Below, one piece after another: positions 12,331-64,000 of a stretch of DNA of 64,000 nucleotides; position 1 is the stretch's first letter, and every line of letters begins with the position of its first letter. The notes below the pieces were generated by a model that worked only from the letters and a program-made list of their open reading frames with translations, made no database searches and was not told where the DNA came from. Origin of the DNA: Bacteroidota bacterium (GTDB lineage: Bacteria > Bacteroidota > Bacteroidia > UKL13-3); the NCBI GenBank assembly GCA_030680835.1, contig JAUXUD010000022.1, positions 124,001 to 188,000 on the forward strand, given 5' to 3'. The translations under genes were made by a program, and so were the position numbers.

Positions 12331-12420
12331 CACCGAACAAAGACGCGATAAATTGCGTCTCTATGGTCGTACATACCATGAATTTACCGATTACCTTGTA
12401 TTTGCCGATTACCGATTACT
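12331..12420. repeat. Degenerate dispersed palindrome plus CCGATTA heptamers
   Basis: AGACGCGAT...ATTGCGTCT at about 12340-12361 is a decayed copy of the palindrome found at 18004-18043 and 35589-35640. Immediately after it, CCGATTA occurs at 12387-12393 and as a direct pair at 12405-12418, a small array with a 7-bp period. It lies between nhaA and the exbD gene. Confidence 0.6.
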
Positions 12421-13734: not shown

Positions 13735-13805
13735 GAATTAAGAATTTAGAATTTAGAATTTAGAATTTAGAATTTAGAATTAAGAATTAAGAATTAAGAA
13801 TTAAG
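13735..13805. repeat. Heptamer tandem array (GAATTTA/GAATTAA)
   Basis: About ten contiguous 7-bp units alternate between GAATTTA-type (5' half) and GAATTAA-type (3' half), in the intergenic region before secDF. The block structure of the two variants suggests stepwise slippage expansion. Confidence 0.85.
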
Positions 13806-18003: not shown

Positions 18004-18043
18004 CCACTGGTAGAGACGCGATTAATCGCGTCTTTACCAGTGG
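18004..18043. repeat. Dispersed palindrome (AGACGCGATTAATCGCGTCT family), copy 1
   Basis: Arms 18004-18023 and 18024-18043 are complementary over 20 bp with one G:T mismatch and no loop. A partial copy of the left arm (GTAGAGACGCGAT) precedes it at 17991-18003. Related copies are at 35589-35640 and, decayed, at about 12340. Confidence 0.85.
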
Positions 18044-18095: not shown

Positions 18096-18360
18096 TCGAA
18101 CCTGCCTTGGTAACATGTTTACCTATATGGGTATGAATCCATACCTGCCCTGGTAACATGTTTACCTATATAGGTATGAGTCCATACCTGCCTTGGTAAC
18201 ATGTTTACCTATATGGGTATGAATCCATACCTGCCCTTAAAACATTGCAACATATATGGGTTGGAGTCCATACCTGCCCTTAAAACATTGCAACATGTGT
18301 AGGTATGAGTCCATACCTGCCCTTAAAACATTGCAGCATATATGGGTAGGAGTCCATACA
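18096..18360. repeat. 43-bp tandem repeat array, about six units
   Basis: The anchor CCATACCTGCC, or its variant, recurs at 18096 (imperfect), 18139, 18182, 18225, 18268, 18311 and 18354 (partial), each exactly 43 bp apart. Units come in two forms: the first three contain GGTAACATGTTTACC (itself a dyad), while later ones carry TAAAACATTGCARCATA at the same place. Every unit also has a GGTATG...CATACC dyad across the junction. There are no unique spacers, so it is not CRISPR. Reading frames through it are spurious. Confidence 0.9.
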
Positions 18361-34708: not shown

Positions 34709-35464
34709 TTGAAACAAGCTGTACTAAATAATCTTATTCAACGGGCCGATTCGGGTATCAAACAATTGGCTGTACTCATTGATCCGGATAGTGTGAATTC
34801 GGAGGAACAATTGCTGAACACCTGCAATTTGTGTGAACAGGCAGGTGTTGATTTGTTGCTGGTTGGCGGAAGTTTAATTACAAACGGATTTTGGGATCGC
34901 TGCATTGATTTATTGAAAGCCCATTCAAACATCCCGGTGGTATTGTTTCCCGGTAATGTAATGCAAACCCATAAAAAAGCCGATGCCATATTGTTTTTAA
35001 GCATGATAAGTGGCAGAAATCCCGAATTATTGATTGGTAAGCATGTTATTGCAGCTCCGGTATTAAAAAAATCAAACATCGAAGTAATTCCTACCGGTTA
35101 TATGATCGTAGACGGAGGTAATATTACCAGTGTGATGTACATGAGCAATACAACACCCATTCCGGCAAATAAAAACAGCATTGCTGCATGTACAGCCATG
35201 GCCGGCGAAATGCTGGGTCTTAAAGTTATGTATATGGATGCAGGCAGTGGTGCTCAAAATCCTATTTCAGCTGCTATGATCAAGGAAGTAAAACAATCGA
35301 TCAGCGGCCCTTTATTTGTGGGAGGCGGAATAAAAAATACCGAAGGAGCCATTAGTGCTTGCATGGCGGGTGCTGATATTGTTGTTGTAGGTAATGCCAT
35401 CGAAAAAAATCCCAATCTCATTATATCGCTGGTAAAAAGCGTACACGGGTTGAATAAAATTTAA
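34709..35464 (+). CDS. Geranylgeranylglyceryl phosphate synthase-like enzyme (GGGPS/PcrB family)
   Basis: Couples a polyprenyl diphosphate to glycerol-1-phosphate, the first committed step of archaeal-type ether lipids; the family also occurs in Bacteroidetes. The 251-residue TIM barrel shows LAVLIDPDSV (about 21-30), the VGGSLITNGFWDRC loop, PVVLFPGNV, PTGYMIVDGGN, MYMDAGSGA and the phosphate-binding VGGGIKNTEGA with GADIVVVGNAIEKNP. The only available start is a TTG at 34709; an upstream in-frame TAA at 34694 excludes an earlier one. No neighbouring lipid genes are seen. Confidence 0.9.
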   Translation: MKQAVLNNLIQRADSGIKQLAVLIDPDSVNSEEQLLNTCNLCEQAGVDLLLVGGSLITNGFWDRCIDLLKAHSNIPVVLFPGNVMQTHKKADAILFLSMISGRNPELLIGKHVIAAPVLKKSNIEVIPTGYMIVDGGNITSVMYMSNTTPIPANKNSIAACTAMAGEMLGLKVMYMDAGSGAQNPISAAMIKEVKQSISGPLFVGGGIKNTEGAISACMAGADIVVVGNAIEKNPNLIISLVKSVHGLNKI

Positions 35465-35465
35465 A

Positions 35466-35571
35466 ATGTACGAATTACGATGTACGAATTACGATGTACG
35501 ATGTACGATGTACAATATACGATGTACGATGTACAATATACGATGTACAATGTACGATATACGATATAACC
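35466..35571. repeat. Heptamer tandem array (TACGATG and variants)
   Basis: About 14 contiguous 7-bp units, mainly TACGATG with TACAATA, TACAATG, TACGATA and TACGAAT variants, directly downstream of the GGGPS-like gene. Confidence 0.9.
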
Positions 35572-35588: not shown

Positions 35589-35640
35589 GGTATATAACCT
35601 GTAAAGACGCGATTAATCGCGTCTCTATATGTTATATGCC
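35589..35640. repeat. Dispersed palindrome (AGACGCGATTAATCGCGTCT family), copy 2
   Basis: A 52-bp imperfect dyad centred on GATT/AATC at 35614/35615. The central 20 bp are perfect and outer arms (GGTATATAAC/GTTATATGCC) pair with wobble. It lies between the heptamer array and the 3' end of the monooxygenase-DsbA gene. Confidence 0.85.
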
Positions 35641-35658: not shown

Positions 35659-37599
35659 TTACACTTCGAATGCTTCAAATTTGCTGATCCAGATAATACC
35701 ATTTTTACTTTCGTATTTATCAATAAGCTTTTGGTCGTACAAATCAATCAGTAATTTATGCCCTTCCTCACGTGAAATGTTACTTAGCAAGGCAAATTCT
35801 TTGTCAGTCATGGTTGGAAAATGCGAGAATAAATTTTCAGGGTCTGTATTTATTTTATCCTTCTTTGCATCAGGAATTAATTTTTTGATAATATCCTCAA
35901 AACTTTCGTAAGGATTATACCCTTTCAGGGTGTATTGGTTATTTGAACTGTCGGAAAATATTAGCGTTGGGAATCCGGTTACGCCCAGTTCACCAGCCAG
36001 GTCAAGATCGGCCTTGAATAGTTCTTTAGCATTACCTTCAAAATCTCTTAAAAGCCGTGCCGAATCCAGTCCCACTTCAAATGCTGCATTCTCAAGAAAT
36101 TCCCACTTAATGATATTCTTCTTTTCAAGAAAAACCATTTCCTTAATGCGTCTCAAAAATAAAATTGCCTTGTTGGTATCCTGCATCTGGGCGGCCTTAA
36201 ATGCAATGGATGGCGGATATGAAGAGTTTAAAGGATCTTCCTTCCATACATCTCCATCGAGTGGCATTTCATGTAAGGCACAAACCTCTTCCCAGTGTTT
36301 GGCTGCATCTGTTGGTTTACGTATTTTTCCACTTGAATATTCTTCCCAGGAAGGCAATAAACCTCCCATACAATATTTAATATTGAGATAGGTTCCATAT
36401 TCCAGTTGCATTTTACGAAGTAAAGGCTGAATAATCCAGCATGTGGAACAAATGGGGTCGGTGAAATAAAGCACCTGAATTTGTTTGCTGTTTTCATAGA
36501 TGCTGTCGTCCTTTTTGGTTGGAATCAATGGCACCGGTATATCATCATCGTGCTGGCTCTGGGGACTTAAAAACAGGTTTGCAAGATCTCTTCCTAAAGT
36601 AATATGTTCTGAGACATCCTGAGAGCGTATACTATAATATTTTTCAAAGGCCATTTCATAATCTTTGGTAGCCAAAAGGGTAAAAACAAGGGCTTTTGCA
36701 TCCACAATGGCATTGGTGGTTCCTGCACTTGTAAAAGGCAATGCCAGGTGTGCCGCGTCGCCGATCAATACCGCATTTTTCTTATGAAAAGCAGGCAGTA
36801 ATCCAAAGTCGCGGGTATTCCATACATAACTGGTTGAAAAGTCATTGGTACTCAGAATTTCATTAACAACGGGTGGAAAATTTTCGAGTAATTTTTTACA
36901 AAACAACTCCAGTTCTTCAGGTGATTTATTTTCAATATCTGAAACGGTGGGATCAAATTGCATAAACCAAACGAATTCGATATCGGAAGTTGGAATTAAA
37001 CCAAATGCCAGGCCGGTGCTTCTGCTCTGAAACTTGGTAAACATACCCGAATGCGTTTTGGCTACTTTTTCATTATACGAAATGCCTACTACTTCTTTCA
37101 CACGAACCGGGGTATAGGTAACCTTTCCAAAAAGTTCTTCTCTTACCTTCGAATTTCCTCCGTCGGCACCTATAAAAATATCTCCATACTCAATCTCACC
37201 GTTTTTGAACACGGCAGCTGTTATTTTATCGTTTTCATATATAAAATGCGAAAATTCACGATTTACTTTTATTTTTTCATCCGGTAATATCGAGAATAAA
37301 AACCGAACCAGATCAACTCTCTTAATACACTTCCATGAGTTTAACTGAAGCCGTTTAATTTCATTTCCATCGGGCCTTCGCAGGCTATACGTCTTAATCA
37401 GTTTACCGGGAAGCAGACTGTTGTTGATACTGTTTAATTCGTTTAAAATAGACAAACCATCGGCATGCATTAAAAAGGCATGACCGCCAACGGGCATCCC
37501 TGAAAATCTTTCATTAATTACTACTTCTACTTTTTTTTGATGTAAAAAAATACCCATTGTTAACCCTGCAATACCACCACCGATAATTACAACTTTCAT
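35659..37599 (-). CDS. Fusion of FAD-dependent monooxygenase and DsbA/FrnE-like thioredoxin-fold domain
   Basis: 646 residues in one frame. Part 1 (about 1-345) is a PHBH/TetX-type flavin monooxygenase: GxGxxG at 7-12 (IIGGGIAGL), the DG motif GADGGNS (144-150) and the GD motif VLIGDAAHLALPF (278-289). Part 2 (about 373-580) is a DsbA-like thioredoxin fold with CSTC at 384-387 (FTDPICSTCWIIQPLL), a long helical insert (MGGLLPSWEEY onward) and cis-Pro in VTGFPTLIF (Pro544), closest to FrnE/SpxH-type proteins. The last ~60 residues resemble a small winged helix. No signal peptide, so cytoplasmic. The start overlaps the upstream aminotransferase stop by 4 nt, meaning tight coupling. I know no characterised protein of this build; substrate unknown. 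Confidence 0.85.
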   Translation of the reverse strand: MKVVIIGGGIAGLTMGIFLHQKKVEVVINERFSGMPVGGHAFLMHADGLSILNELNSINNSLLPGKLIKTYSLRRPDGNEIKRLQLNSWKCIKRVDLVRFLFSILPDEKIKVNREFSHFIYENDKITAAVFKNGEIEYGDIFIGADGGNSKVREELFGKVTYTPVRVKEVVGISYNEKVAKTHSGMFTKFQSRSTGLAFGLIPTSDIEFVWFMQFDPTVSDIENKSPEELELFCKKLLENFPPVVNEILSTNDFSTSYVWNTRDFGLLPAFHKKNAVLIGDAAHLALPFTSAGTTNAIVDAKALVFTLLATKDYEMAFEKYYSIRSQDVSEHITLGRDLANLFLSPQSQHDDDIPVPLIPTKKDDSIYENSKQIQVLYFTDPICSTCWIIQPLLRKMQLEYGTYLNIKYCMGGLLPSWEEYSSGKIRKPTDAAKHWEEVCALHEMPLDGDVWKEDPLNSSYPPSIAFKAAQMQDTNKAILFLRRIKEMVFLEKKNIIKWEFLENAAFEVGLDSARLLRDFEGNAKELFKADLDLAGELGVTGFPTLIFSDSSNNQYTLKGYNPYESFEDIIKKLIPDAKKDKINTDPENLFSHFPTMTDKEFALLSNISREEGHKLLIDLYDQKLIDKYESKNGIIWISKFEAFEV

Positions 37600-38765
37600 A
37601 TAAAATTAATTGTGTTTTTTATTCTTAAAATTGCTTCCTTTAAAATATCTGCGGATGTTGCAAAACTCAACCGGATATAGCCATCGGCTCCATCCCCAAA
37701 CCACTCTTTCAATCCGGGTACTACGGCTACCTTTGCTTGGTCCATTAATATTCTGTGTATTTCAATATTTGTTTTATTAGTTCCCCGGATATCAACAAAA
37801 GCCACATAGCAGCCTTGCGGGGAAATACATTTAAATCCTGAAATTGCATTCATTTCATTCACACATAAATCGCGCATCGACTGTAAATGAGCAACAAAAT
37901 CATTTAACCAATATTCACATTTTTCAAGAGCAGCGGTTGCAGCAACCTGTGAAACTACATTGGCTCCATGAACTGTTGATTGATGTAGGGAAGCTTCCAT
38001 TAATTTATTAAAGTGCATTGCATGAGATGCCATCACACTTCCAATTCTTAATCCGGCCAAGCCATACGACTTGCTAAATCCTGTAATGGTAATGGTTCTG
38101 TCCCTGATCTCCCGGTTTAAGGATGCAATACTTACAAACTGGCAGGGTTTAAAAACGATGTCGCTCCATATTTCATCCGATAAAATAATCAGATTGTATT
38201 TACAGGCAATTTCACCCAGCTGCATCAATTCCGATTTCGTAAAAACCTTTCCTGTGGGATTCAGGGGATTGCATAAACAAAGCATCCGGGTATTTTTTGA
38301 TATCAGACTTTCCAGAAGTGTAAAGTCAATATCTGCATCTCCGGCGGGTATTGCAAACGGTACCGCAATCCCTCCAACAGATTCAACAGAATACCTGAAT
38401 AAAAAATCTACCGGATCAAAAATAATAGCTTCATCATGCTTTTCAAGAAAGGCCTTACAGGTTAAATAAATACCATAAGCGGCGCTGTCTACGGGTAAAA
38501 TGAATTCGGGGGCAGCCGGAATATTTCGCTTATTTTGATAATATCCGGCAAGGCTTTCTTTAAACTCGGACAATCCTTCGGGGGGGCCGTAACAGAAATA
38601 TCGTTCATTGCTGAAATTACAAATTGCCGCTGCAATTTCCGGAGCACATGGAAAATCAGGATCGGCTGCTGTTAATGGAATAATCCCTTCAGCCACTTTA
38701 GCCCAGCGTAAGTTAAATGCTCTTTTTTTTAAAATTTCAAGATTTACTGAGGTATGGCTAAACAT
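37596..38765 (-). CDS. PLP-dependent class I/II aminotransferase
   Basis: A 389-residue fold-type I PLP enzyme. Key features are NPLNPTGKVF (166-175), the PLP-nitrogen-binding Asp197 in LSDEIW, the Schiff-base Lys232 in TGFSKSYGLAGLRIG, and a C-terminal arginine in YIRLSF for the substrate carboxylate. Similarity is to aspartate/aromatic aminotransferases and PatB/MalY-type C-S lyases; motifs alone do not separate these. Its stop overlaps the start of the monooxygenase-DsbA gene. The response regulator gene ends 34 nt upstream. Context suggests it supplies or consumes a keto or amino acid that the flavoprotein also handles; this is inference. Confidence 0.9.
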   Translation of the reverse strand: MFSHTSVNLEILKKRAFNLRWAKVAEGIIPLTAADPDFPCAPEIAAAICNFSNERYFCYGPPEGLSEFKESLAGYYQNKRNIPAAPEFILPVDSAAYGIYLTCKAFLEKHDEAIIFDPVDFLFRYSVESVGGIAVPFAIPAGDADIDFTLLESLISKNTRMLCLCNPLNPTGKVFTKSELMQLGEIACKYNLIILSDEIWSDIVFKPCQFVSIASLNREIRDRTITITGFSKSYGLAGLRIGSVMASHAMHFNKLMEASLHQSTVHGANVVSQVAATAALEKCEYWLNDFVAHLQSMRDLCVNEMNAISGFKCISPQGCYVAFVDIRGTNKTNIEIHRILMDQAKVAVVPGLKEWFGDGADGYIRLSFATSADILKEAILRIKNTINFI

Positions 38766-38799
38766 TTTAATGCAGGGTATTTAAGTGGGAAGAAAGTAA

Positions 38800-39183
38800 T
38801 TATTTATTCAATAGCTCAATTATTTTATCTTTTACCAGTGGTTTGATAAAAAGATCGGAAACCATGGGATGACTTTTTGCCCTTTCAATATCATAAGGAG
38901 CAATCGTTGATGAAACAATATAGATATCTATTTTCTTTGCCAATTTGGGAAGTAATAATTTATATTCTTCCAAAAAACCCCAGCCATCCAATATGGGCAT
39001 AAAAATATCCAAAAAAATAATATCCGGCAATAACAAGGCATTGCCTGCAATACTCTTTAAATAATCTATTGCTTCCTGTCCATCATTAAATTCACTTATC
39101 TGAGATTCAATTTTGGTAGAACTAATTGTTTTTTTAGTTAAAAAAACAAAGGTTTGATCATCATCAACAATAAATAAATTCAT
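38800..39183 (-). CDS. Single-domain response regulator
   Basis: A 127-residue CheY-like receiver without output domain. The acidic pocket is VDDDQ (residues 6-10), the phospho-acceptor Asp59 lies in DIIFLDIFMP, the switch Thr/Ser is in IVSST, and Lys is in LFIKPL (about 113). The gene lies 11 nt downstream of the histidine kinase gene, so this is its probable partner. Single receivers relay phosphate or act by protein contact, so how it would influence the downstream enzymes is unclear. Confidence 0.92.
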   Translation of the reverse strand: MNLFIVDDDQTFVFLTKKTISSTKIESQISEFNDGQEAIDYLKSIAGNALLLPDIIFLDIFMPILDGWGFLEEYKLLLPKLAKKIDIYIVSSTIAPYDIERAKSHPMVSDLFIKPLVKDKIIELLNK

Positions 39184-39194
39184 GTTTTAATTTA

Positions 39195-40703
39195 TCAATA
39201 CTGGTTTTTAAATTCAATAAATATAGTTGTACCTTTATCAGGGGTACTTTCTGCCCAAATTTTCCCGTCCATTGCATCAACATGGGTTTTTGTCATATAC
39301 AATCCAAATCCTTTTGCATTGGGATTGCGGTGAAATACCTTGCCTATTTTAAAAAAATTGTCTTTGTGTTTTACCAGGTCAATACCCAAACCGTTATCGC
39401 TTACTGATAAAATGATATTGTTATTTGCTTTTTTAGTCTCGATGATAATATGTGGTTTTCTTTGTGGTGATTTGTACTTAAGTGAATTGCTAATTAAATT
39501 ATGGAATATGCTGAACAGATATTTGGGAGGAAACAGAATCTCCGGTGCCTCATTGAATTTTCTTTCAATAACGGCTCCCGACCGGCTTATTTCCGCTTCA
39601 AATGGTTCCAATGTTCTGTTCAAACACATTTCTAAATTAATATTTTCTGATTGTATTTCAATATCCTGTTTTATTTGAATTGATTCTACCAGTTCGTTAA
39701 ACGTTGTATGTAAATTTTCAATAACCGGTTTAAATTTTGATATTAAAAATTTTCTTTCCTGTTCGTCAGTACTTTCTTCAATAAATGTAACCAGCATCGA
39801 CATATTTACCAGAGGCGCCCTGAGGTTATGCGATACAATATTACAAAAATCTACCAATTGCACATTTTGTAATGAAAGCTGTTCAACATATAAAGCCTGC
39901 TTTTCTTCAAGTAATTTCCGCTCCGTTATATCAATACCAAATCCAATAACCATTGATAACTCTCCTTTTTCGTCAAGAACCGGGAACAATCTTCTCAAAT
40001 GAGTGATGGTATTGCCTTCCGGGCTTTTCAAACTGTCCTCCCATCTCATTTCCCTGCCCGACTTTTTCACCTCTAAAAACTGTTCGCGTCTCACTTGGGC
40101 CAGTGAAGTATCTCTTTTTCTGTATGCTGCGTATTCAAAATCATCTTTGCCAATAATATATTTTCTAAGCTCTTCATCTTTAATTGCTCCCGGATTTACA
40201 AACAAATATCTGTGCTCTTTATCAAACACCGCAATATCCGTAGGAATTTTATTTAATATATTTTCATAAAATTCTTTTTGCTTATCAAGTCTGCTTGATA
40301 TCAGTTTCCTGTCTGTTAAATCACTTATATAGCAAATATAAAATCTTTCTCCATTGATTGTTGAAAGAGATATCCCTAATGCAATGTTTACATCTGTATT
40401 ATTTTTACGTAATGCAGAAATTTCATGGGTATTGTTTACTACTTTACCCTCATTAAATTGCTCCATCCAGCTAAGATGCTCATTTCTACCGGCTTCGGGA
40501 ATGATTATTTCATGAATTTTTTTCCCAAATGTTTCTTCTTCGGTCCAGTCAAAAATAACGCGGGCTTTTGGATTCCAGTAAAGAATCACCCCATCCGGAT
40601 TGATCACGATGATGGCATGAATTGCATTTTCAAAAATGCATTTCAACTGAACCAAAGTCTCATTTAATCCTTGTTTGTTATTTATATTCTGGCTCTTTTC
40701 CAT
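39195..40703 (-). CDS. Cytoplasmic PAS-PAS sensor histidine kinase
   Basis: A 502-residue kinase without signal peptide or TM helices. Two PAS domains (about 14-132, ending in YISDLTDRK; and 145-262, ending in GFGIDITERK) lead via a coiled coil to a HisKA domain with His292 in NIVSHNLRAPL. The ATPase follows with N box FHNLISNSLKYKSP, G1 box SVSDNGLGIDL and G2 box KGFGLYMTKTHV. The PAS domains should sense a small molecule, redox or light inside the cell. It is first in the minus-strand unit kinase - receiver - aminotransferase - monooxygenase/DsbA. Confidence 0.93.
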   Translation of the reverse strand: MEKSQNINNKQGLNETLVQLKCIFENAIHAIIVINPDGVILYWNPKARVIFDWTEEETFGKKIHEIIIPEAGRNEHLSWMEQFNEGKVVNNTHEISALRKNNTDVNIALGISLSTINGERFYICYISDLTDRKLISSRLDKQKEFYENILNKIPTDIAVFDKEHRYLFVNPGAIKDEELRKYIIGKDDFEYAAYRKRDTSLAQVRREQFLEVKKSGREMRWEDSLKSPEGNTITHLRRLFPVLDEKGELSMVIGFGIDITERKLLEEKQALYVEQLSLQNVQLVDFCNIVSHNLRAPLVNMSMLVTFIEESTDEQERKFLISKFKPVIENLHTTFNELVESIQIKQDIEIQSENINLEMCLNRTLEPFEAEISRSGAVIERKFNEAPEILFPPKYLFSIFHNLISNSLKYKSPQRKPHIIIETKKANNNIILSVSDNGLGIDLVKHKDNFFKIGKVFHRNPNAKGFGLYMTKTHVDAMDGKIWAESTPDKGTTIFIEFKNQY

Positions 40704-41024
40704 TGCTTTTAATATTCAAAAGCTTGATAATCAATTGGGTTATTAATATTATACAAATTGGATTTTAAAATATAATCCCAGCACATTTCCATTGAATTTC
40801 TTTTTCAATTTTCCTGGGAATACAAGTAAAGGGTTTATAAAGACAAAGTTAACTCAAAAAAATCCATAAATGCAACACTTTATGGGTTTGCATATTAAAA
40901 ACAATCCTGATAACAGGTAGTAATATTAATTTAATTAAACATAATGGCTGTATCAGCAGTAATCGAACTGCCGGAGCGGAGTATAGATCCAGGCAGGTAA
41001 ATTTAAGTTCCTGCTTAACGATTC
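40704..41024. other. Intergenic region upstream of the PAS kinase
   Basis: 321 bp without a supported gene. AT-rich in the left two thirds, and more GC-rich with CTGCCGGAGCGGAG at 40969-40982. It must hold the kinase promoter and the 3' end of the small lipoprotein transcript. Confidence 0.4.
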
Positions 41025-62900: not shown

Positions 62901-64000
62901 AGAAGTGCAAGTTGTGTTGCCACAGTAACTGTACTTGATACCATAGCTCCAACAGCTATTGCACAAAACGTTGACATTTATCTGAATGCAAGCGGCACTG
63001 CTTCCACTACTGCTTCTGCTGTGAACAATGGCTCTTATGACAATTGCAGTATTGCAAGTCTGAGTCTTTCAAAGACCGACTTTACCTGCTCTAATGTAGG
63101 TAATAACAATGTTGTATTAACTGTACTCGATGTAAATGGAAACAGTTCTACAGTAAATGCCACCGTGATTGTTCACGATAATATAAATCCAACAGCCATT
63201 GCTCAGAATGCTGATATATATCTGAACGCAAGCGGCACTGCTTCCACTACTGCGGTTGCAGTAAACAATGCCTCATATGACAATTGCGGGATAGCAAGCA
63301 TAAGTCTTTCCAAGACCGACTTCAACTGCAGTAATGTGGGTAACAACAATGTTGTATTAACTGTACTCGATGTGAATGGAAACACTTCAACTGTAAATGC
63401 CACCGTGATTGTTCATGATAATATTAATCCAACTGCGATTGCACAAAACGTTGACATTTATCTGAACGCAAGCGGTGCTGCTTTTACTACTGCATCGGCA
63501 GTGAACAATGGCTCTTACGATAATTGCGGGATTGCAAGCATAAGTCTTTCCAAAACCGATTTCAACTGCTCCAATGTAGGTAATAACAATGTTGTATTAA
63601 CGGTGCTGGATGTGAATGGAAACAGTTCTACCGTGAATGCCACCGTGATTGTTCATGATAATATTGCTCCTACTGCCATTACACAGAACATTAGCATAAC
63701 ACTGGTTGGCGGCGCTGCTTCAATTACTGCAACTGATGTGAATAATGGCAGCTTTGATAATTGCGGTATTGCAAGTCTGGCTGTTTCTAAAACCAGCTTT
63801 TATTGTACCAATTTAGGCCCCAATACGGTTACCTTAACTGTTACCGATGTGAACGGAAATATTTCCACCCAAACTGCTATGGTTACTGTTATTGGTGCCA
63901 TTCCAACTGCAAGCATTGCCCAGGGGGTTCAACCCGGATTTACCCAGGGAGGTGCCATTGTACTTACTGCCAGTTCTCCAACTGCAGTAAGCTATAGCTG
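53988..64000 (+). CDS. Giant multidomain adhesin-like surface protein (partial, C-terminus beyond right edge)
   Basis: One frame open from the ATG at 53988 (or the second ATG at 54000) to the window end, at least 3337 codons. A signal peptide (LKVLFLLLLTLPAMA) precedes the first module. Module starts marked YYWVGG(S/T)GxW(T/S)D are at about residues 38, 742, 1150 and 1552. Next come a SprB-like repeat (about 1885-1960), a LamG/concanavalin-like domain (about 1992-2190), a PKD-like segment (VWNFGDFTTSN, about 2218), two further SprB-like repeats (2267-2420), about five HYR domains (CPSNITVN..., 2430-2900) and four 80-residue repeats (about 2985-3305). This is typical of gliding or attachment adhesins such as SprB. 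A T9SS sorting domain is expected downstream but not visible. Confidence 0.88.
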   Translation, partial: MLIKMKTKLQFKNLRRTARFLKVLFLLLLTLPAMATDYYWVGGSGTWTDISHHWATTSGGAVFHPQVPSQFDRVIFDANSFSASGQEVTMNVEGFCKEFRSRNVLPGVKFTSTKPLNVYEGMSIDSNMIWSQTGNLIISTGGFTLGKSVTFYLNGTFSMPSGAFTLLNGATYNQPGGACTVTNGLFTLNVGSSFTHTGGQLYIGNSSLTINAGSTFYHQGGITLNMGSLTVNTGATYRENSGTLQMNNGSVNIQREATFYQNGTFNINVGSFTLGSKSTYTQYGDMNMGNGAFTMGDTVTWTKNNSINQNRGDFKIGTDNTFYINSGNVLNDVFGDFYIGARTTFSPNCCTVRTSGHFYFDVTTIINTSASIQIGIGNLVLDSGMRWTCNNVLYLWTGSLIVKAGARFSHNNHAYVYGSLDIDSAAIYTGTTQYYMRGTGTGLYIKSGNRDLRRIQFDGNNGQYTFMDDAIFSSDGIFMYGNGNNINFNGKKIKAYHFYHWDGNPITINLTGTDTVFVKGQYRIYSSANVIGNPVIYYDGTDHFYMISLNNKVYDKVYMKAQNTGGTQIQFQNNSKAKSVEILASGTQQLYFDNVTIDKYDITYLQNYNTTVLTQFNNGAHIDTLNITSNYNIKTNLVTNGSNYLGRVNIPKITQWTIGANQTQTLVSMNPLNGVCGGEFSLNSNSIGTAGTISMTNDSLKGNWLKIQDCRAIGGAVFIADNTVNFGNVTGWIINSIPPRDFYWVGGTGNWNDPNHWAFTSGGVTSGCALPNKVDNVIFDTLSFSASGQYVNVNVTVDVNNMTWDNVKTGARFEGGGEFNLWGSLVLHRNMVYNFGGNFNFVSRTLGKTVFTDGVRMRTVWFGRDANASTGSWTLLDNFDNDGSWFYFVYGKLITNGKNIKTFGFHNWHGPSCVIDWTGTDTVQVQYMFISYNPTTWISRPGLVIFDSYNHFYIYGGNHTLNDVLMNARSTGSTYIEISQNTTLRDVKINAYGTQYMTLHHQLTMRDFEFNYLLTNNVQQNLDFQTNPGIFRNLKILSSGLMRPQIYFRYQNTVDSLVLPNISRLYFAGGYTKYINKYLKIQGACDNRIPFYSDGLYGYITSPAGTDFSVDWVNMQRLKGQGGATFNATHVLNLGDNVGWNITPNPTTNYYWVGGSGDWSDKNHWSFTSGGTPGVCPMPERTDNVIFDVNSFTGPNQYVNVNTSANCLSMTWNNVNFPRIIGGGDLNIYGSMTLDSKLSWQHTNWTYFRSTTTGNTVTTKGVNMYLVNFAGTGEWTLGDNFKAQYDIYVNSGTFNSGGKTITLGRNFYCWTGNPTTVNLTGTDTISVTNEFRIYPNNFNLTMGNAVVKFTGTNHFYFTGGGKTYTDLVFNADNTGSTAINIAYNNSIRNVKINAAGYQQINMSSSSTYNDVTMLFRNTTTSNPTVNVSGNNTFNDMTITSIGTAGPFINLYNNNTYNNLIIAGVGTRIFIGANQTQTVNDALALGSGSYPVFLQSTSQGTQGTINKPFGNICMDYIWLRDLRVIGTGTFNAGATSTNLGNNTNWSFTSCAGYYWVGGTGNWSDYAHHWAYASGGTILHNTVPTEFDDVYFDANSFTTAGEVVTVDVNEPKMRNLSWASALYTPTLTGTVSSTEMNVYGSIKLITNMNQNFTGDWNFKSPNDSNDINTAGKTLTRVNFVGGNNGQGEWTLRNNLTVADAINLNNGKLFLNGKEVITKYFNSSTSNTRTLDLSTSNINIVDGAWNPSNLSNLTFIKGSSEIIIKGSLNSNFLGNGLTYNNVTFRPTTTMSSTLTGANTYTKLRFEGGVNASLEPVIQLATTFEFVGTCAKQIGIQSTSTGNQSTFRQLSGTVNGSFINIKDNVATGGATFNANQSVNLGNSSGWNFSNAPSISIATTSGLVNCQVNNDGWAKVSVLQGTAPFTYLWSTNETTDSIAGLIPGIYNVTVRDSNGCAATDAVSVINLPSALAPVNWDASAYDVCQGTNINFTPNEVSTAIQLDGTNDYVSIPNSATLNSATNATWEGWFYFNSLPSTSTLFSKNTNNFADGYFINVLGNGKLQYNQASDTGNTQTFTTTGVITTGVWTHIAVTKNGATVTIYVNGVQMAQNSAHASSIVTSTNPLKLGASISNSNNIVQFFNGKMDEVRVWNTTRNQTQIQANRNIDLNGNESGLVAYYNMEYNTGTSTLKDMTSNNNNGTLTNMVPATDWVSPGAVNSTISYVWNFGDFTTSNLKTPSKNYTAAGTYNVSLGTYDKNGCPNFVSKTIRVSQLVVSVIKSNIQCRGADNGTISITASGGILPYSYSIDNGATYSSSSDFTGLTAGTYQVKVRDSIGCTSAVQSQVISQPATALAFTKVQNGPICPFSTAGTITVTASGGSTPYQYSKNAGISYQSSNLFDLLTSGTYTIRVRDANNCLAADQSVTITDVDTIKPVFTSCPSNITVNTSGACVATVNYAAPTATDNCKTPAITRTQGLASGSAFPLGVTTVTYMADDSSGNTINCTFTVTVVDNQNPTISCPSTVTVNAINGTCAAIATYAVTATDNCGIQSVVYSIASGSSFNVGTTPVTVTATDVNNRVSTCSFNVVVVDNQNPVITCPANISVNADAGNCSAVIASLGTPTSSDNCGVALVSNNHPSTSYPVGITNVTWTVTDVNGRIANCVQTVTVTDTQDPTITCPSNISVFANTGNCSAVVSSLGTPTTADNCGVASTTNNHPSTTYPVGVTNVTWTVTDVNGRTATCVQTVTVTDNQNPTITAPANVTVNVDAGLCSASGISLGTPVTSDNCSVDSVWNDAGSSFNKGTTNVTWYVRDINGNSNSTIQTVTVNDNIAPTLICKVDTAILNALGTVTITSSDVVSTSSDNCGVPVLTLSQSTFGLSEIGNNIVIVTSTDASNNITRCTTTVVVVEPAPHAFCKNATVYLDASGHATIVPADIDNGSYSLIGISNRTVSQSAFNCSHVGNNTDTLTVYNSFNRSASCVATVTVLDTIAPTAIAQNVDIYLNASGTASTTASAVNNGSYDNCSIASLSLSKTDFTCSNVGNNNVVLTVLDVNGNSSTVNATVIVHDNINPTAIAQNADIYLNASGTASTTAVAVNNASYDNCGIASISLSKTDFNCSNVGNNNVVLTVLDVNGNTSTVNATVIVHDNINPTAIAQNVDIYLNASGAAFTTASAVNNGSYDNCGIASISLSKTDFNCSNVGNNNVVLTVLDVNGNSSTVNATVIVHDNIAPTAITQNISITLVGGAASITATDVNNGSFDNCGIASLAVSKTSFYCTNLGPNTVTLTVTDVNGNISTQTAMVTVIGAIPTASIAQGVQPGFTQGGAIVLTASSPTAVSYS
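62941..63900 (+). repeat. 240-bp (80-residue) tandem repeats inside the giant adhesin
   Basis: Four in-frame units start at equivalent bases 62941, 63181, 63421 and 63661, exactly 240 bp apart. The first three are highly similar at DNA level (each with NVDIYLNASG or NADIYLNASG, SYDNC, LSLSKTDF or ISLSKTDF, VLTVLDVNGN and VIVHDN); the fourth is more divergent. Confidence 0.9.

Follow-up and report, generated by a model that had tools for sequence, protein, structure and literature searches.

The locus, its signalling genes and their distribution

Within the window, by which we mean the whole stretch of 64,000 nucleotides analysed here, four genes lie close together on the minus strand. Their predicted products and the flanking features, in the direction of transcription, are as follows:

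40844 to 40875, minus strand: candidate Bacteroidota-type promoter TTG-N21-TAACTTTG, a pattern match only, ending 141 nt upstream of the kinase start
39195 to 40703, minus strand: PAS-PAS-DHp-HATPase_c histidine kinase, 502 aa, with His292 in SHNLRAP; optional signalling module
38800 to 39183, minus strand: receiver domain without output domain, 127 aa, with predicted phospho-acceptor Asp59
37596 to 38765, minus strand: fold-type I PLP enzyme (Aminotran_1_2), 389 aa, with DPVDFL, DEIWSD and SKSYG; catalytic Lys232 assigned by alignment
36550 to 37599, minus strand: class A FAD monooxygenase (FAD_binding_3), N-terminal part of the fusion, residues ~1-350
35659 to 36490, minus strand: YjbH/SpxH-like thioredoxin-fold domain, C-terminal part of the fusion, residues ~371-646, with C384-S-T-C387 and a winged-helix-like tail; optional module
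35605 to 35624, no strand assigned: palindrome AGACGCGATTAATCGCGTCT following the fusion gene; it resembles a terminator but recurs elsewhere in the window

The monooxygenase and the YjbH-like part share one open reading frame (37599-35659, minus strand, 646 aa). The kinase and receiver genes are separated by 11 nt and the receiver and PLP enzyme genes by 34 nt, while the PLP enzyme and fusion genes overlap by 4 nt (ATGA), in exact agreement with the layout reported in the first-pass annotation. A pattern search of the locus revealed no terminator-like sites at the gene junctions, and the four genes would probably be cotranscribed. In several relatives the gap between receiver and PLP enzyme exceeds 100 nt, so separate transcription is possible there.

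Pfam resolved the kinase as PAS-PAS-HATPase and the receiver as Response_reg. The kinase had been described as soluble, and its hydropathy agrees with this, since the peak value (KD19) is 1.53 and no stretch reaches transmembrane level. The putative phospho-acceptors of a two-component pair, His292 and Asp59, are found in the neighbouring kinase and receiver at the positions originally given for them; the SHNLR motif is present in 28 of 29 kinase orthologs and LD..MP in all 29 receiver orthologs. Lone receivers are common in the source genome, where open frames of at most 165 aa account for 14 of the 83 receiver matches, so the missing output domain is unremarkable. The sensor part varies among lineages (PAS-PAS, GAF-PAS, GAF-PAS-PAS or PAS alone), and the signal therefore need not be identical in all of them. 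As in other systems composed of a histidine kinase and a single-domain response regulator, a PAS/GAF kinase is followed here by an output-less receiver; the difference is that in the 395 class genomes this pair is specific to the enzyme locus. Indeed, kinase orthologs (E<1e-90) were found in only 2 of these 395 genomes, the source genome and Pedobacter quisquiliarum, and both lie at this locus. In six Pedobacter loci (L091, L092, L095, L115, L123 and L152) the monooxygenase is unfused, the N-terminus of the kinase differs, and a conserved ORF of 201 to 217 aa with a response-regulator-like start lies about 130 nt downstream.

The distribution of the locus was established by a genome scan with the PLP-enzyme alignment, from which the best 80 of 437 loci were taken; all are Bacteroidota, and this set is biased to close relatives of the source PLP enzyme. 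The locus counts rest on tblastn coordinates and a simple ORF caller, being approximate at contig ends, and the phylogenies on quick trees and FastTree. Among these best 80 of 437 loci, the monooxygenase adjoins the PLP enzyme wherever both ends are readable, and the exact 4-nt overlap recurs in 54 of the 71 measurable pairs. Orthologs of the kinase and the receiver stand directly upstream of the enzyme pair in 29 of the 73 loci with at least 1.5 kb of upstream sequence (again among the best 80 of 437), with 52-73% identity for the kinase and 43-65% for the receiver; in 2 of the 29 the monooxygenase is cut by a contig end. These kinase-bearing loci belong to Pedobacter, Flavipsychrobacter, Segetibacter and other Chitinophagaceae and Sphingobacteriaceae. 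With the four genes together in 29 loci of other genomes, the grouping is not a matter of chance.

On the PLP-enzyme tree, presence of the kinase requires 3 changes, against a mean of 23.6 for shuffled labels, a pattern that favours roughly a single gain of the signalling module, which was then kept. The four genes also have correlated distance matrices (r of 0.64-0.76), a level reached in 0 of 2000 permutations, although such correlation is also expected from plain vertical descent of the hosts. The conservation of gene order that had been proposed thus holds, as a recurring and apparently co-inherited arrangement. The idea of one indivisible unit does not, because the enzyme pair occurs without the kinase pair at 44 of the 73 loci (best 80 of 437), the very situation that the first-pass annotation had named as evidence against it. 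A Persicobacter plasmid, the only one recovered in a plasmid search with the PLP enzyme, and one further genome (G584), both deep relatives, likewise have the two enzymes without kinase or receiver, adjacent in reversed order; no plasmid matched the flavin part. Since the pair is common without them, the signalling genes are an add-on, and by these sequence comparisons the two-gene enzyme core is older and wider than the four-gene unit. One genome (G326) carries the PLP enzyme (60% identity) without a neighbouring monooxygenase.

The two enzymes and the YjbH/SpxH-type module

The PLP enzyme matches Aminotran_1_2 in Pfam, and its Schiff-base Lys232 as well as Asn169, Asp197 and Arg365 could be assigned by alignment. 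In these residues and in fold it is like the PatB/MalY C-S lyases and the aromatic and aspartate aminotransferases of fold type I, but it differs from them at two positions: an Asp in DPVDFL stands where most relatives carry a cofactor-stacking aromatic residue, and the Trp of DEIW takes the place of the His of PatB/MalY (DEIH) and the Tyr of aminotransferases (DEIY). DEIH near the cofactor is a mark of PatB/MalY enzymes and is seen in the aligned PatB-type chains. Both replacements (Asp120 and Trp200, placed by alignment only at the positions of the Trp140 and Tyr225 equivalents) are found in 80/80 loci (the best 80 of 437) and in two deep relatives, and the subfamily motifs read DPVDFL, DEIWSD and SKS[YF]G.

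Three assignments were considered that do not fit this enzyme: (i) a classical class I aminotransferase, as the stacking aromatic residue and the Tyr225 equivalent both appear to be replaced; (ii) membership of the PatB C-S lyases (TIGR04350), which is its best NCBIfam match, at 215.8 bits against a curated cut-off of 340; (iii) a PatB/MalY C-S lyase by the DEIH motif, which is DEIW at every one of those best 80 loci. Profile comparison favours neither the aromatic aminotransferase 1dju nor the PatB-like protein 4dgt, the two scoring equally, and the nearest folds are a mix of aminotransferases, C-S lyases (PatB, cystalysin) and OvoB. Judged by sequence, the PLP enzyme is a distinct subfamily, neither a textbook aminotransferase nor a PatB lyase.

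The N-terminal half of the fusion matches PF01494 (FAD_binding_3, 1.3e-18), and the GxGxxG, DG and GD motifs that, with this fold, define class A FAD monooxygenases are unchanged across 38 sequences. In an AlphaFold model of the fusion (mean pLDDT 87.9, pTM 0.81) the flavin part superposes on HpxO with a TMt of 0.81, its nearest folds being HpxO, NicC, PhzS and Tet(X)-type hydroxylases. With these class A FAD aromatic hydroxylases, including the Tet(X)-type destructases, it shares the fold and the FAD motifs; however, identity is only ~20%, the protein scores far under every NCBIfam equivalog cut-off and, unlike them, it is coupled to a PLP enzyme and is often fused to YjbH.

The C-terminal half had been called DsbA. 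The thioredoxin fold, the CxxC (C384, C387) and P544 as the predicted cis-proline, residues expected of a DsbA-type oxidoreductase, are indeed there, but the domain is more exactly YjbH/SpxH-like: it matches PF13743 (Thioredoxin_5, 5.3e-51) and continues into the YjbH C-terminal extension. Geobacillus YjbH (6ghb) aligns with fusion residues 370-637 (E 2.4e-43), from before the CxxC through that extension, and superposes on this part of the model with a TMt of 0.92. Compared with the Firmicutes YjbH/SpxH proteins (6ghb, 6gho; PF13743), the full-length fold is alike, extension included, and the CxxC sits at the equal place, reading CSTC here and CPEC there; in contrast, the domain here forms the C-terminal half of a flavin monooxygenase, in a genome without a Spx/ArsC partner. 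Spx degradation by the YjbH of B. subtilis and S. aureus does not need the cysteines, whereas the CxxC of L. monocytogenes YjbH is needed for other functions (PMC7253607).

In the FastTree phylogeny the 70 fused YjbH copies group in a single clade (support 99), separate from 25 stand-alone ones, which fits a single fusion event, and supported branches of the PLP-enzyme tree force at least 4 changes of fusion state. On this phylogenetic evidence the YjbH domain was fused once and lost repeatedly. Among the searched genomes with an unfused or decayed form, none except P. quisquiliarum has a YjbH-like protein (E<1e-30), so the module is dispensable for the core chemistry; we thus reject the DsbA/YjbH part as an essential pathway component. 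Where the domain is present, 59 of 63 fusions retain the CxxC and all 63 its first cysteine, indicating that the motif is constrained and suggesting that redox activity still matters there. In Flavobacterium urumqiense (L093) the YjbH half is decayed, with stops within its first 15 residues, and the monooxygenase part is open. The fusions at three loci (L128, L129 and L161) have lost the second CxxC cysteine, and an intact stand-alone YjbH-like gene lies convergent to them, 13 nt off.

Proposed function and competing explanations

As a whole, the locus is best explained as a two-enzyme oxidising core with optional signalling and YjbH modules, a reading to which we give a probability of roughly 0.6. 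The translationally coupled PLP enzyme and class A FAD monooxygenase would oxidise an amino-acid-derived small molecule in two steps, the order of which we infer; the substrate, judging solely from the enzyme classes, is probably aromatic or heteroaromatic. The proposal that the enzymes make up a small-molecule pathway is accordingly retained in so far as the two are coupled and look like one. The PAS/GAF kinase would pass phosphate to the output-less receiver and so link pathway output to a cytoplasmic signal, the receiver presumably acting by protein-protein contact and not by DNA binding. The fused YjbH/SpxH-type domain may serve a regulatory or a docking/redox-sensing role, not a catalytic one. 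A more specific version is tentative and rather unlikely as it stands: the PLP enzyme, its pocket altered by the stacking-position Asp and by Trp in place of the last residue of DEIH/Y, would not be a transaminase; its product would go to a monooxygenase tuned in cis by YjbH, and the receiver downstream of the kinase would touch the enzymes directly. If true, this would be a new Bacteroidota pathway, with the YjbH domain adjusting either the amount of enzyme or its activity.

Two alternatives concern the chemistry and the role of the fused domain. The flavin/thiol-redox chemistry and the possibly sulfur-containing product first proposed for the locus would correspond to a pathway with a cysteine conjugate as substrate of the monooxygenase, a PLP enzyme that cleaves C-S bonds (or sulfoxides) in the manner of PatB or OvoB, and a YjbH CxxC that deals with the thiol or sulfenic acid released. 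The top NCBIfam match of the PLP enzyme, the presence of PatB, cystalysin and OvoB among its nearest folds, and the retention of the CxxC all speak for this pathway, which we nevertheless consider unlikely: the TIGR04350 score is far under its cut-off, the His of the C-S lyase DEIH is Trp throughout the best 80 of 437 loci, the profile fits an aromatic aminotransferase equally, and S-oxygenation is unusual among class A monooxygenases. Since the YjbH-type domain has been lost repeatedly, mostly without replacement, neither thiol-redox chemistry nor a sulfur product is indicated. Alternatively, the fusion could be a ClpXP adaptor for a Spx-like regulator, with the flavin domain as a redox or ligand sensor and metabolism secondary. 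This would account for the full-length YjbH homology, C-terminal part included, and most fusion-carrying genomes do encode ArsC/Spx-family proteins. However, the source genome (99.84% complete) has no match to the Spx/ArsC family (PF03960), for which control genomes were positive, so the known YjbH-Spx role cannot apply here and a Spx-adaptor function is ruled out in this genome; no such protein was found either in two other fusion carriers, G231 (with a 71% identical fusion) and G413. As, in addition, the flavin domain and PLP enzyme persist at the locus without YjbH, we regard the adaptor explanation as highly doubtful.

The signalling pair, for its part, might be a mere neighbour: an ordinary Bacteroidota kinase and lone receiver that act elsewhere and are held in place by linkage. 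The abundance of lone receivers in the genome and the many enzyme pairs without a kinase pair, as counted above, are compatible with this, but at loci of Sphingobacteriaceae as well as Chitinophagaceae the pair has stayed beside the enzymes, and in 395 genomes no ortholog of the kinase was found away from the locus, which makes such a bystander role quite unlikely.

For YjbH/SpxH fusions, for PatB combined with a monooxygenase and DsbA, and for the DEIW motif, we found no description in the open-access literature searched, in line with the earlier remark that no described system was known to have this gene content. The two-enzyme core, of PLP enzyme and flavin monooxygenase, is a conserved Bacteroidota pair for which we found no prior description. 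Its carriers offer a natural experiment: the sensor pair is present in some related species and missing from others, as is the YjbH module, so that the contribution of each module is directly testable. Among cultured carriers, Pedobacter cryoconitis combines the kinase with an unfused monooxygenase, P. gandavensis has both kinase and fusion, and Arcicella rosea has the fusion but lacks the kinase. The attachment of a YjbH-type domain to a metabolic enzyme where the genome lacks Spx also bears on the role of this domain outside the Firmicutes.

Repeated sequences in the window

The palindrome GACGCGATTAATCGCGTC is a dispersed palindromic element: it occurs in the window at 35606-35623, 18015-18032 and 12342-12359, twice as an exact copy and once with 2 mismatches, where none would be expected by chance. 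The window gave no Rfam match, and no tRNA was found in it. Between the fusion gene and a convergent ORF (34709-35464) lies a tandem repeat of the heptamer ATGTACG, with about 14 copies at 35466-35565. Another heptamer, GAATTTA, forms an array of about 10 copies at 13735-13805, and longer tandem repeats occupy 18100-18359 (43 bp, 6 copies) and 62948-63689 (240 bp, 3 copies) of the window.
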